Virus record (IMG/VR): IMGVR_UViG_3300029268_000023
Coordinates: 1-52,519 of that record
DNA from: a virus
DNA: 52,519 nucleotides
Direction: 5' to 3' (one strand)
Within the stretch, counting starts at the first letter, position 1, and each line of letters starts with the position of its first letter. Under the pieces are notes generated by a model. That model was not told where the DNA came from. It did no database searches and saw nothing but the letters and a program-made list of their open reading frames with translations. This document shows, one piece after another, positions 33,335-40,219 of the stretch. Made by a program: the position numbers and the translations under genes.

Positions 33335-35254
33335 TTATCCTCTTCCGTTTATCTGCACAGCAGATCTTTGATCAATTGATGTTTGATATTTCTTAGCAGC
33401 TAACATCTGACCTTCTACAATTCTATTTATAGTATTATCATCCAAAGACACAATTGTTACACCACTTGATGTTGTTTGAATCTTATTCTTAGGCAAATTC
33501 TTATTGTTAGCTTCATTAGAATTCTTAACAACAACTGGATCACCAATTTGACTCTTTTCTTCAACCATAGGGAAAGCGCCGGACTTCACATCAGCTCTAT
33601 TAACTCCAATTGGTTCAATATGCCAAGGTTCTTTTGTAGTCATTGGTTGATGAAATCCCCACTTTTTCATTAATCCAGAAGAAGCCATTTCATTAGCTTC
33701 ACGAGAATTAATGTCAAGAGCATATCCAAAGTTGTGAAGAGATCTACCTGGAGGAGCTGCATATCCAGCAGGACTTTCAGCAAACAATTTCTTTTGTGCT
33801 TCTATTGATCTAAAAGCTGAGTTAACCTGAACTGTTTTACCAGTTTGTTGATTATATTCATTAGCCATACCTTGAAAATTATTCATTACTGATGGTTGTA
33901 CACCTGATAAATCTACACCAGGTTGAGCTTTAAAACTATTAGATAATATAGTTCCAAGTTCAGATGCAGTTGATTTAATTCCAGTTGCTATGTTGGATAC
34001 TTTTGAAGCTGTTGGTTTTAATACTTTATCTGTAGCAAATTTAGTAGCACCTTTTATTCCACTTATTACAGCCTTTGTACCTTTTCCAACAAGATCTGCA
34101 CCTTTTTTAACAATTGGACTTTCAGATACAGCTTTTACCCATCCAACAACACTAAGCAACCATTGTCCAGATCCAGGGACCAATCTATCTAAGTTAGCTG
34201 CCATACTTTCAGCAGCTTCAAGAGGGTTGGTAAACGCTCCACCTATAGCTTTTGCTATTCCAATAAATGGACCAATAACTGGAATCTTTTCTAAATCAGC
34301 ATCTGTCTTCTTTGCAGCAGCTTTTATCGTTCCACCTGCTTCTTTTTTAGTAGCCATTTTAATGTCTCTAAAAAGAAGTAAAGCATCAATGCCCATACTA
34401 ACAACTGTACCTATACCAGGAAATATTGATGCTACACCAGAAGCTATTTCTCCAAGCCCTCCAACAATATCACCTTCACGAAATCTTTGAATACCAAACA
34501 ACAGTCCAATAATAGCACCAACACCAGGAATCTTTTTAAGAAGTGTTGCTGCACCTTTGCCAGCTAATTTTCCAGCACCTTTAGCTAAAGCTTTTGGAGC
34601 CAGTTTAGGACCTATACCTCCTAAAAGAGCTTTAAGAGGATCCATTAAGAATGAGTGAAATATTTCTGAGAAACCACCTTTTATACCAAGAACTTTAATA
34701 AATCTAACAGCGGTGTTAATACCTTTTAACCCACCTCGAGTTATATCAGCTCCTATTTTAATAAAACCTTTAATACCCTTTGCTACTTGTCCCCCGAAAG
34801 TGAATAATTCATTAACCATTTTGATAGGATTATATTTAAGTAACCCTTTAGCAAGTGAGCTTAGAAAACTTACTTTACCAGTTAATAAAAATCCAACAAG
34901 ACCACCAATAGCCATTAATGATTTTAGTCCACCAAATAAACTGGTACCTTTATCTTTTAACCACTTTTTAGTATTTTCTGCAGTTTGACTGGTGTTTTTA
35001 TCAATCTTCTTCAACATCTTCTCAGTAGCATCTGTTTTAGCAGATAGAAATTCATCTTTCTTTTTAGGAGCGGCTACTGTTCTCTTATATTGGTCTTCAG
35101 CTTTTTGCAGCTTTAAGAACGTAGTTAGCTCTTTAAGGCGGAGGTTGTTTTCCTTAAGAGCGTCCGTACGTTCTTTCTCTTTAGCTTTTCTAACTACATC
35201 GCTGTCAGCGCCATAAAGAGATTCCATTGTTGCTTTTGACATTCCTGTTGCCAT
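33335..35254 (-). CDS. 29: Tape measure protein with C-terminal M15-type peptidase
   Basis: The 639-residue protein begins with a charged helical segment, continues with glycine-rich hydrophobic helices (LMAIGGLVGFLLTGK, KKIPGVGAIIGLLFGI, IASGVASIFPGIGTVV), typical of tape measures, and has a D-Ala-D-Ala carboxypeptidase-like domain at about 470-550: AFRSIEAQKKLF, SLHNFGYALDIN and EPWHIEP, giving zinc ligands His507, Asp514 and His545. T4 gp29 (590 residues) has no such domain. It sets tail length and would be delivered on infection, when the peptidase could cut cell-wall cross-links. The gene begins right after the +1-frame chaperone extension. Confidence 0.85.
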   Translation of the reverse strand: MATGMSKATMESLYGADSDVVRKAKEKERTDALKENNLRLKELTTFLKLQKAEDQYKRTVAAPKKKDEFLSAKTDATEKMLKKIDKNTSQTAENTKKWLKDKGTSLFGGLKSLMAIGGLVGFLLTGKVSFLSSLAKGLLKYNPIKMVNELFTFGGQVAKGIKGFIKIGADITRGGLKGINTAVRFIKVLGIKGGFSEIFHSFLMDPLKALLGGIGPKLAPKALAKGAGKLAGKGAATLLKKIPGVGAIIGLLFGIQRFREGDIVGGLGEIASGVASIFPGIGTVVSMGIDALLLFRDIKMATKKEAGGTIKAAAKKTDADLEKIPVIGPFIGIAKAIGGAFTNPLEAAESMAANLDRLVPGSGQWLLSVVGWVKAVSESPIVKKGADLVGKGTKAVISGIKGATKFATDKVLKPTASKVSNIATGIKSTASELGTILSNSFKAQPGVDLSGVQPSVMNNFQGMANEYNQQTGKTVQVNSAFRSIEAQKKLFAESPAGYAAPPGRSLHNFGYALDINSREANEMASSGLMKKWGFHQPMTTKEPWHIEPIGVNRADVKSGAFPMVEEKSQIGDPVVVKNSNEANNKNLPKNKIQTTSSGVTIVSLDDNTINRIVEGQMLAAKKYQTSIDQRSAVQINGRG

Positions 35255-35257
35255 TTA

Positions 35258-35434
35258 TTAAGTACCTCCAAAAAATAATTTATCAGGTGAAGCATTTGGT
35301 TGTTTACGTTCAGAATCTTTTTCTTTAGATAAACGCTCATATTGCCACACAAACTCAAAAAACTCTACATCATCAAAAATAAACGGCGAACAGTGAAAGT
35401 AGTATCCCATATTAAAAGCAATTTCAAGGACATC
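35258..35434 (-). CDS. Overlapping +1-frame extension of the tail assembly chaperone-like gene
   Basis: Fifty-eight codons (35434 to the TAA at 35258-35260) stay open in the +1 frame relative to the upstream gene. They continue open upstream through its last codons and have no start codon with a ribosome site; the only in-frame ATG is nine codons in. The product (DVLEIAFNMGYYFHCSPFIFDDVEFFEF...) looks like real protein with a charged tail. Position between a chaperone-like gene and the tape measure gene is the classic place for programmed frameshifting. CTTCCCGAA just before the overlap could allow a +1 slip from CCC to CCG. Confidence 0.6.
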   Translation of the reverse strand, partial: DVLEIAFNMGYYFHCSPFIFDDVEFFEFVWQYERLSKEKDSERKQPNASPDKLFFGGT

Positions 35435-36254
35435 ACTTAATTTTATATTCGGGAAGAAAGAATTCTTCTCGAAACGATATCGCCGTCAGGCTGTCACCTC
35501 CGCATTTCTCACATTTAACCTTTAGAACATTTGTAACACCACAATCATATTGTTTGATATAACTTACAATGTAAGCATAGTTCTGAGGGCCAACTTTGTC
35601 AGAAATTACATAATTATATCTATCAAGTAAACTTTCTTCTTTTCCATTAATAGAGTTAATCATTAATGCAACACTGAGAATTTCATCATCTATTTCTTTG
35701 AGAATGTTCTCATAAGATATCTTGAACTTAGTTGCATACTGCTCTTCTGCTACAGTTAGTAAATGAATTGTTAACTCATCTCCATTTGGAATGGAGAAAG
35801 TCATTTGATCATCTGACCAATCATCTGGCAAATAAGTAACATCTAAATTATTTAGTGTAAAATTGAATTCACCCTTTTCTTTGCAATGTTGACATTCAAA
35901 GTCAATTAGGAATCCGTTTTCACGATATGTGTTTGCTCTTAACCAAAAGATTAAAAACAATTTGTCAGCAATCAATAGATCATCAACATTTATACCAGTA
36001 ATTGATCTTTTAATAACATCGTTAACAACATAGTTTGCGTTAACATCTGTCATTGAGGATAGTTTCTTAACTTCAACTACTTTGAGAGGTCTTCCAAATA
36101 ACTTTGTGCCATCTGGATACATTTTTCCTCTACTTGGTAATCCTTCAATCTCCCATACATTAGGCTCTTTGATTTCTTGAGCTTTAATTGCAGGTTTCTT
36201 AACTGACGACTTCTTTTCAACAACACTTTCATCCACTTCTTCCATTCGTGGCAT
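35433..36254 (-). CDS. 26: Baseplate hub/tail assembly protein gp26-like, zinc-binding
   Basis: The 273-residue protein has the T4 baseplate (gp26/gp51-type) features: EIEGLPSRGKMYPDGTKLFGRPL, then FLIFWLRANTYRENGFLIDFECQHCKEKGEFNFTLNNLD and a C-terminal VKCEKCGGDSL. The two CxxC pairs probably bind one zinc. The N-terminal 35 residues are charged and disordered. In T4 these small proteins catalyse hub assembly; here the position right before the tape measure fits a tail assembly chaperone role. The stop overlaps an open +1 frame, see next feature in transcription order. Confidence 0.78.
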   Translation of the reverse strand: MPRMEEVDESVVEKKSSVKKPAIKAQEIKEPNVWEIEGLPSRGKMYPDGTKLFGRPLKVVEVKKLSSMTDVNANYVVNDVIKRSITGINVDDLLIADKLFLIFWLRANTYRENGFLIDFECQHCKEKGEFNFTLNNLDVTYLPDDWSDDQMTFSIPNGDELTIHLLTVAEEQYATKFKISYENILKEIDDEILSVALMINSINGKEESLLDRYNYVISDKVGPQNYAYIVSYIKQYDCGVTNVLKVKCEKCGGDSLTAISFREEFFLPEYKIK

Positions 36255-38201: not shown

Positions 38202-38753
38202 TTACACAACTTGATAATAATCATAGGTAAATTCAACTGAAAATTTCACTGATTCGTTACTGTTATAATCCAAAGACACTTCACTTAGGTTTGTTGGATA
38301 AGCATTTCTGAATCTTATAGCGCTATCCATCTCACTACCGTTATATTTATATAACTTTAACCATACATCTACAGCGTATTGCTTTTTGATAATAAAACTG
38401 CTTAAAGTTGCAGTCGGACTATATGGATCTGAACTACAAATAGATTGCATCCAGTTAGTAATTGTCTTATAAACCTTTTGATCTTCTCGCTCTTCTAAAG
38501 TAATACTTATTTTATTATCAAAAGATTGAGTAATAGGGAAAAGTTGTTTTTGACCATAGAAATAAGTTTCATATAAGTCAATTGTTCTTCCAGGTATAGC
38601 TATACTTTTGCATGCCATTATAATTTCATCAAATGTTAATTGTGAGGCTAACTGTGGAAGTTGAGGTATCCAAAATTGCCATAAAAAATTTCTTTGGATA
38701 TCAGCTTGATTCTTACCACGACCTTCTATAGTAAAATTATTTCCAGCTGGCAT
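38202..38753 (-). CDS. Tail tube protein gp19 paralogue
   Basis: A 183-residue protein similar along its length to the next protein upstream (38818-39378): both open with NFTIE-R-x-(6)-DIQR, have a SIPGRT loop and FGxKQLFP/FMGTKQVFP, and end with YPTNLSEVSLDYNSNESVKFSVEFTYDYY. That ending is the tube signature. Tandem duplication of gene 19 is thus evident. It is preceded by a strong hairpin and a late promoter, so it can be expressed separately. It may form a special tube segment or an alternative tube. Confidence 0.78.
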   Translation of the reverse strand: MPAGNNFTIEGRGKNQADIQRNFLWQFWIPQLPQLASQLTFDEIIMACKSIAIPGRTIDLYETYFYGQKQLFPITQSFDNKISITLEEREDQKVYKTITNWMQSICSSDPYSPTATLSSFIIKKQYAVDVWLKLYKYNGSEMDSAIRFRNAYPTNLSEVSLDYNSNESVKFSVEFTYDYYQVV

Positions 38754-38817: not shown

Positions 38818-39378
38818 TTATTGAGCGTCGAACAGAGTCCAAAGATCGTATTTGAAAGTTACACTATATTTGATACTCTCGTTACCATCATATGTTAGAG
38901 CTACGTCAGCTATATCTGATGGATACATGTTATAGAAGCGAACCCATTTCTCAGTTGGAGCTTGTCGTCCAAACTTATACATTTTTAGAAAACCATCTGT
39001 GACCATTCCAGCTCTTTTTCTTTCAGCCTCAGATGAGCCCGCAAATTCAGCTTCTGGATCTGGATTAAAGATTTTATTCTTCCAAGCATATAACGCTTTA
39101 AAGATATATTGATCTTCTGAGTCTTCGAATGTTACTTCTAAAGTATTTGAAAAATTTTCTTTTCCTGGAAATACCTGCTTTGTACCCATGAATACAGATT
39201 CTATGTGTTCATTAGTTCTTCCAGGAATGCTACATGTACGAGCACGAATAAGCAATCCCTCTTCAGATGCAATAGGAACAATATCAGCAATTCTTGGGAA
39301 CGATACTTCGAATAACCAAGAACGCTGTATATCTTGAATTGCACGCGCTCTATTTTCTATCGTAAAATTTGCGGCCAT
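38818..39378 (-). CDS. 19: Tail tube protein gp19
   Basis: The 186-residue protein has the gp19 pattern: ENRARAIQDIQRSWLFEVSFP, ARTCSIPGRTNEHIESVFMGTKQVFPG, FSNTLEVTFEDSEDQYIFKALYAWKNKI and YPSDIADVALTYDGNESIKYSVTFKYDLW. T4 gp19 is 163 residues. It is the first tube gene after the sheath gene, separated only by a GIY-YIG gene, so I take it as the main tube subunit. It stacks as hexamer rings round the tape measure. Confidence 0.88.
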   Translation of the reverse strand: MAANFTIENRARAIQDIQRSWLFEVSFPRIADIVPIASEEGLLIRARTCSIPGRTNEHIESVFMGTKQVFPGKENFSNTLEVTFEDSEDQYIFKALYAWKNKIFNPDPEAEFAGSSEAERKRAGMVTDGFLKMYKFGRQAPTEKWVRFYNMYPSDIADVALTYDGNESIKYSVTFKYDLWTLFDAQ

Positions 39379-39391
39379 ATTTTAATCCTCC

Positions 39392-40219
39392 TTAAGGTTT
39401 TGAAAATCTTTCGATTATCCAATTTTTATACTGTATACTATAACTCTTTTTATTGCTAAATGTAACTCTTATCATTTTGTAATTCAACTCTGGTTTGTCT
39501 AAGCAAAACTTTTTAATATCTGTTACATTATTGTATTCTATACTATTATTTATAAACCTATAAATAAATTTTGAATTATTGTTATTTGTACCAGATCCAG
39601 CAATTAATCTTTTATTTTTGTATTCATCACCTTGCTGTCTTGCTTTAGACATTTCACTTAATTTTCTTCTAATCTCATCTGGGTTAGAGTGTTTACATAT
39701 TTCATCAAGAGTTTTGCCTTTATGATCTGACACTTTACCTTTACGGGAAGAATTATCTCTTAATTTTTGTTTATGGTCTTCTGTTAATTTTCTACCAGTT
39801 AACGTATCACTTATTTTCTTTTTGATTTCTTCTGATGTTTTATGACCTATCATTCTTATTGATCGCTCATGGCGTTCTTTTTCAGATATCACTCTTTTGA
39901 ACCCACATACTCCTTCACCACCATCCGTCATATTCAATAAATTTCCAGTTTTATTAACTCTTTTACCATACTTCTTTATTAAACATTTTTCTAATATAAA
40001 TGCATCTTCTTCTGTTAGATGTTTTACCACAAATATTGTTTGAGGGTTCTCTTTATATTGATCAATATACTTTTTAACCCAGTTTAAAAAATATGTTCTT
40101 TTCTTTGATGAAAAAGCACTTGATAGATGATCTAAATATCTTCTTCCTTTTCCCTTTCCAACATACACAACTTTATCATTTATATCAAGATATGCATAAA
40201 CATAGAATTTTCTTTCCAT
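39392..40219 (-). CDS. GIY-YIG homing endonuclease
   Basis: The 275-residue protein opens FYVYAYLDINDKVVYVGKGKGRRYLDH, a GIY-YIG variant, followed by AFILEKCLIKKYGK with the metal-binding-type Glu. The centre holds NUMOD3-like repeats (IGHKTSEEIKKKISDTLTGRKLTEDHKQKL, RKGKVSDHKGKT), and the C-terminus a helix-turn-helix-like YRFINNSIEYNNVTDIKKFC. GGAGG precedes the ATG. It separates genes 18 and 19, which are adjacent in T4. A structured element lies between it and gene 18. Confidence 0.87.
   Translation of the reverse strand: MERKFYVYAYLDINDKVVYVGKGKGRRYLDHLSSAFSSKKRTYFLNWVKKYIDQYKENPQTIFVVKHLTEEDAFILEKCLIKKYGKRVNKTGNLLNMTDGGEGVCGFKRVISEKERHERSIRMIGHKTSEEIKKKISDTLTGRKLTEDHKQKLRDNSSRKGKVSDHKGKTLDEICKHSNPDEIRRKLSEMSKARQQGDEYKNKRLIAGSGTNNNNSKFIYRFINNSIEYNNVTDIKKFCLDKPELNYKMIRVTFSNKKSYSIQYKNWIIERFSKP

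Follow-up and report, generated by a model that had tools for sequence, protein, structure and literature searches.

Immediately before its tape measure gene, the 52,519-nucleotide stretch of viral DNA analysed here, referred to as the window, carries a gp26-like gene whose stop codon is crossed by an open +1 reading frame, which raises the question of whether ribosomes change frame at this point to make a longer protein and, if so, at which codon. A preliminary description of the sequence had proposed a frameshifted gp26-like protein of about 330 residues, a proposal that comparison with relatives strongly supports. The gene very probably encodes the tail assembly chaperone of a contractile-tailed phage of the T4 superfamily, in which a minority +1 slip would make a long form of 331 residues.

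The probable chaperone gene and its overlapping +1 frame

The locus comprises the following features:

35433-36254, minus strand: TAC-N, the gp26-like short form of the tail assembly chaperone, 273 aa (Pfam, PHROG, AlphaFold2 and structural matches)
35258-35455, minus strand: TAC-C, the +1-frame extension (FPNIKLSDVLEIAFNMGYYFHCSPFIFDDVEFFEFVWQYERLSKEKDSERKQPNASPDKLFFGGT*), which would run for 65 codons from the slip onwards (extension profile and predicted helices)
33335-35254, minus strand: tape measure protein, 639 aa, with a VanY-like peptidase domain (Pfam and PHROG)

The 0-frame gene ends in ...REEFFLPEYKIK* at a TGA (35435-35433, minus strand). The open stretch of the +1 frame starts 50 nt before this TGA and closes with a TAA at 35260-35258, and thus continues for 58 codons beyond the end of the gp26-like gene and stops 3 nt ahead of the tape measure ATG at 35254, just as the preliminary description had it. 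The only start codons within the +1 ORF are an ATG at 35410 and a later GTG, and the earlier statement that none is provided with a ribosome site also holds, no SD-like motif having been found upstream of either. A fusion made through the slip site favoured below would have 331 residues. The −1 frame opens for only 22 codons past the stop, with almost no overlap. An overlapping extension of 40–95 codons, in either shifted frame, was also present in 7 of 245 control genes (other genes of the same loci), so that such an overlap is uncommon but not decisive by itself; the decisive evidence comes from comparison.

TAC-N matches Pfam PF12322 (T4_baseplate; E 2.5e-8, above the gathering score) and phrog_150 (baseplate hub; 1.3e-11). 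The ordered part of its AlphaFold2 model (pLDDT 89.8) closes with a short helix, residues 263-266, at Glu-Phe-Phe, and the 0-frame tail past this helix is of lower confidence. The structural neighbours of the model among viral models are gp26-like baseplate proteins of phages, and a search against the PDB returned no match. A second, in-frame long paralogue was sought, and the 52.5 kb record, which may be a fragment, gave one chaperone-family match only. The tape measure protein was recognised by Pfam VanY (E 1.7e-9) and by phrog_16823, tail length tape measure (1.7e-10); its VanY-type D-Ala-D-Ala carboxypeptidase domain, near residues 452-522, is likely a cell-wall-opening activity.

Two other observations concern the tail genes of the window, again on the minus strand. 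The genes for the tail sheath and tail tube are separated by a GIY-YIG endonuclease-like ORF (39392-40219; LEM-3_GIY-YIG, E 7.7e-8), which is probably a homing endonuclease. Two similar, adjoining tail-tube-like genes (38202-38753 and 38818-39378), one of which matches Phage_T4_gp19 just under the cut-off, suggest a duplication of the tube gene.

Shifted-frame and two-gene layouts among relatives

Five very distant relatives were recovered by tblastn, from Thermus phage phiLo, Listeria phage LIS04, Streptococcus phage GXN1, Xanthomonas phage phiXF1 and one uncultured virus, and all five have a +1 ORF across the stop, running towards the tape measure gene where that gene was identified. The set was widened via Bacillus SP-15, Pseudomonas QdP_Psa3, Rhizobium RHph_N46, Xanthomonas PhiXhv-12 and Erwinia Ep032, and by two IMG/VR scans, to a total of 121 gene records in 59 clusters at 60% identity. 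A +1 extension is present in 39 of these clusters and a −1 extension in 12, the rest being tandem paralogues; 14 clusters had been labelled −1, and two were dropped as artefacts, locus L074 being a long paralogue and L112 a frame error. The −1 loci include the cyanophages P-SSM2 and ACG-2014j as well as Melnitz, phiM7, OLIVR5, RHph_I46, YB07 and ZPAH1. In the relatives, the end of the extension lies near the following long ORF, commonly no more than 60 nt away. The TAC-N tree calls for three changes of direction, and strongly supported branches require at least two of them. When viral contigs were scanned with TAC-N or the sheath of the window itself, no close relative emerged; scans with phiXF1 or PhiXhv-12 sequence alone found no relative, and the neighbours of the tape measure in Erwinia phage Y3 gave no match.

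The −1 loci of P-SSM2, OLIVR5, phiM7 and RHph_I46 contain mini-genes that carry the annotation ‘gp51’ or ‘baseplate hub assembly catalyst’ and are probably the −1 frameshift extension of gp26, not independent genes.

A third layout consists of a short and a long in-frame paralogue in tandem before the tape measure, as in PaBG (gp073/gp072), NCTB (211/210) and the loci L064-L066, L071-L074, L081 and L084-L089, and the two-gene solution of T4 genes 26 and 51 appears to have arisen several times. The preliminary description was right that T4 does not frameshift: its short form, gp26, and its long form, gp51, are products of separate paralogous genes, both of which match PF12322, the match of gp51 ending at residue 201 of 249 and leaving a C-terminal extension.

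Identity of the extension

A profile of the extension was built from 38 other +1 extensions, with the window excluded, and compared with every stop-to-stop ORF of 25 aa or more in the window, 951 in all. The +1 ORF was the top match (E 3e-6, the runner-up reaching 1.5), and it came first again with a profile of +1 and −1 extensions combined (E 2.5e-7, next 0.33) and with one made of IMG/VR extensions only (E 0.0019). Pfam and PHROGs did not recognise the window extension itself, for which AlphaFold2 predicts two helices (pLDDT 80). Substitutions in the extension between close relatives number 103, 36 and 215 at the first, second and third codon positions of the +1 frame (nine non-independent pairs), which is, as judged from these counts, the pattern of a translated frame under purifying selection.

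The in-frame fusions of relatives, which the preliminary description had named as a control, provide the natural one. The extension profile matches the C-termini of the in-frame long paralogues of tandem pairs in six IMG/VR lineages (E 1e-14 to 1e-22) and that of PaBG at about 1e-4, and gave no match to the short paralogues of these pairs. For T4 gp51 the likeness is only suggestive (hmmsearch E 0.0065; hhalign with its C-terminus E 0.0086, probability 4.7%). As the C-termini of in-frame paralogues mostly match the profile, the extension can therefore be identified as the C-terminal (TAC-C) domain, one that belongs at the C-terminus of the chaperone, and a fusion of ~331 residues is the best explanation of the overlap.

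The probable slip site

Three codons in or near the overlap require consideration:

35456-35462, minus strand: TTC TTT C, the likeliest +1 slip site, homologous to the conserved Phe-Phe that ends TAC-N
35451-35453, minus strand: CCC (of CCC_GAA), the slip codon first proposed, present in the window and kept as a rival
35472-35474, minus strand: TTT (of TTT_CGA), an alternative slip codon in the overlap, of influenza PA-X type, not at the homologous position

At the conserved Phe-Phe position, counted by hand at the second Phe or at a single Phe in the same place, TTT followed by C or T is found in 35 of the 39 +1 clusters: TTT then C in 27, of which 21 are TTT CGN, and TTT TGG in 8. The clusters outside this pattern are LIS04 (TTT TTT A), L047 and L055 (both AAT CCC AGT) and LR756500, which is unclear. 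Where there are two Phe codons, the second is TTT in all 32 +1 clusters, where local codon use would predict 20.9 (joint p about 1e-7), and the first is TTT in 24 of 32, near expectation. Phe-Phe is preceded by a T in 10 of 11 −1 loci, giving T TTT TTN, compared with 1 of 32 +1 loci, the sole case being L044 (Fisher p 6e-8). The window reads GAA TTC TTT C, without the NNT TTT TTN heptamer of the −1 relatives, and therefore falls in the +1 class; at the A site it has CTT and not the commonest CGN. A search for a stimulatory RNA hairpin gave no significant result (z −1.4). A −2 shift, which would enter the same frame as +1, was ruled out, TTC TTT C sites being unable to re-pair at −2. Within the +1 class, a subgroup of viral contigs (L047, L049, L053 and L055) is without TTT_C and has AAT CCC AGT instead, which suggests a CCC_A slip site, i.e. 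a switch of the slippery codon.

Alternative explanations

The same frameshifted chaperone could be made by slippage at CCC_GAA (35453-35451) or at the upstream TTT_CGA (35474-35472), which lie 6 nt downstream and 15 nt upstream of TTT_C; both are +1-compatible and inside the overlap. For the CCC there is the stretch TTTCTTCCCGA, which is common to the window, PhiXhv-12 and Ep032, and the CCC_AGT of L047 and L055 where TTT_C is absent. Against this, CCC_G occurs in only 3 of the 39 clusters, compared with the 35 that have TTT_C or TTT_T at the homologous position, and the upstream TTT is off the Phe-Phe position altogether. We consider slippage at either of these codons unlikely, and the slip probably occurs at TTT_C (35459-35456), a codon assigned by its position. 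The expectation of a conserved slip site in the overlap of relatives was thus borne out, but for TTT_C/TTT_T and not for the CCC to CCG slip originally suggested.

The remaining alternatives dispense with a ribosomal frameshift. It is very improbable that the extension is a separate small gene of 50 aa starting at the ATG at 35410: an in-frame ATG is indeed present, and such ORFs have been annotated in P-SSM2, phiM7, OLIVR5 and Melnitz, as ‘baseplate hub assembly catalyst’ or hypothetical protein, but the window ATG has no SD-like motif ahead of it and falls within the conserved domain, many relatives lack an SD-preceded start before the domain, and the in-frame long paralogues have this domain fused to TAC-N. 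The possibility that one long gene was broken in two by a sequencing error or an inactivating indel draws on the window being a single contig with no close relative, and is scarcely credible when dozens of independent loci are split at this same point, isolate genomes of the +1 and of the −1 kind among them. Similarly, there is next to no likelihood that the long form arises by transcriptional and not ribosomal slippage; T6 runs in some relatives could also favour polymerase slippage, but the window site, TTCTTTCTTCCC, has no run longer than three, and TTC TTT C sites are also found in phiXF1, QdP_Psa3, GXN1 and others.

Proposed mechanism

Under ribosomal slippage at TTT_C, we infer that most ribosomes would stop at the TGA at 35435-35433 and release the short form (TAC-N), and that a minority would slip +1 near the end of the gene and read on to 35258, producing the 331-residue long form, TAC-NC. 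The P-site tRNA-Phe would move from UUU to UUC at 35459-35456 while the A-site codon is slow. By analogy with lambda gpG/gpGT, the short and long forms may coat the tape measure protein, the product of the next gene, and recruit tail tube subunits; the lambda and P1 literature suggests a chaperone function of this kind, with tape measure binding, tube recruitment and absence from virions.

Comparison with known systems

Chaperone frameshifts of the classical kind, which Xu, Hendrix and Duda are reported to have treated in 2004, are mostly −1. Like the window, lambda has a two-frame gene directly upstream of the tape measure and a short and a minor long form, gpG/gpGT, which coat the tape measure and recruit the tube protein (PMC5009743); lambda-type frameshifts differ in being mostly −1, and the likeness to the window drawn here is one of layout. 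The tail chaperone of the haloarchaeal myovirus HSTV-2 very likely uses a +1 shift (PMC5009743) and shares with the window a +1 direction in a myovirus tail chaperone, but belongs to a different virus lineage. A +1 shift at UCC UUU CGU produces PA-X of influenza A, for which a P-site tRNA-Phe slip from UUU to UUC has been proposed (PMC8310308). The same slip is proposed here, and 21 of the 39 clusters have TTT CGN, the window itself having TTT CTT; PA-X differs in belonging to a eukaryotic virus and in being an unrelated protein.

Considering the T4-like phages, gp26/gp51 and the −1 relatives have in common with the window the PF12322 family and a C-terminal extension at the domain end, and the frameshifting T4-like phages also place the gene before the tape measure. 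The cyanophage-type relatives differ in shifting −1 at NNT TTT TTN, mostly U UUU UUC/UUU, where the window would shift +1 at UUU_C, and T4 differs in having two genes. Vladimirov, Gautam and Davidson (2022, Virology 566:9-15) reportedly found frameshifting to be conserved in several T4-like groups, with T4 using genes 26 and 51. In papers that cite this work, some T4-like phages are said to possess a short gene and a long one in place of a frameshift (Vladimirov et al. 2022, as cited in PMC10885494), and poly-T −1 signals are noted in T4-like chaperones (Vladimirov et al. 2022, as cited in PMC12846349).

Frameshifted chaperones, those of T4-like phages included, are thus already published; a search of the literature, in which Vladimirov et al. 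2022 was covered through citing papers, found no description of a +1 UUU_Y class at these codons, and the widespread UUU_Y variant at the codons of the −1 shift is possibly new. On balance, the comparisons favour a model in which a +1 UUU_Y slip by tRNA-Phe (often at UUU CGN) operates in a large T4-superfamily and P1-like branch, including the essential pmgB of P1, at the same two Phe codons as the cyanophage-type −1 shift. The direction would depend on the wobble base ahead of Phe-Phe, a T giving −1 and any other base +1, together with TTT as the second Phe codon, and would have switched at least twice.

Phage P1 pmgB

PmgB of P1 is essential, and its gene lies just before the tape measure gene sit; it has been described as lacking any relative of known function, and a role as tape measure chaperone has been proposed by position only (PMC9024508). 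The TAC-N profile finds P1 PmgB (AF234172) with E 9e-7. The site in pmgB is CCC TTT CGG, the +1 ORF thereafter ends 12 nt before sit, and this extension matches the TAC-C profile with E 2e-4. Both the codon and the +1 ORF are kept in Cronobacter phage JK004 (CAG TTT CGG) and Escherichia phage D6 (CCC TTT CTC). P1 PmgB therefore has the gp26 family, the TTT_C codon and a +1 ORF reaching the tape measure in common with the window, and differs in a 33-codon 0-frame tail after the site. No report of a frameshift in P1 pmgB was found in the literature, and from these likenesses we predict that a +1 frameshift probably occurs there.

Implications

Programmed frameshifting of tail assembly chaperones would be extended by this locus to a deep, uncultured T4-like lineage. 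Because the arrangement recurs in dozens of distant phages, probably P1 among them, it is real and widespread and not a fundamentally new trick. The comparison points to a possible natural family that uses the same pair of codons for +1 or −1 frameshifting according to one neighbouring base, with a direction that is testable by comparison, and pmgB of P1 (CCC UUU CGG) offers a concrete +1 prediction in a classic phage. It would also account for unexplained ‘hypothetical’ or ‘gp51’ mini-genes beside tape measures, whose annotation may be corrected accordingly. Finally, the two-gene solutions in T4, in PaBG- and NCTB-like phages and in several uncultured lineages suggest a repeated swap of recoding for gene duplication.
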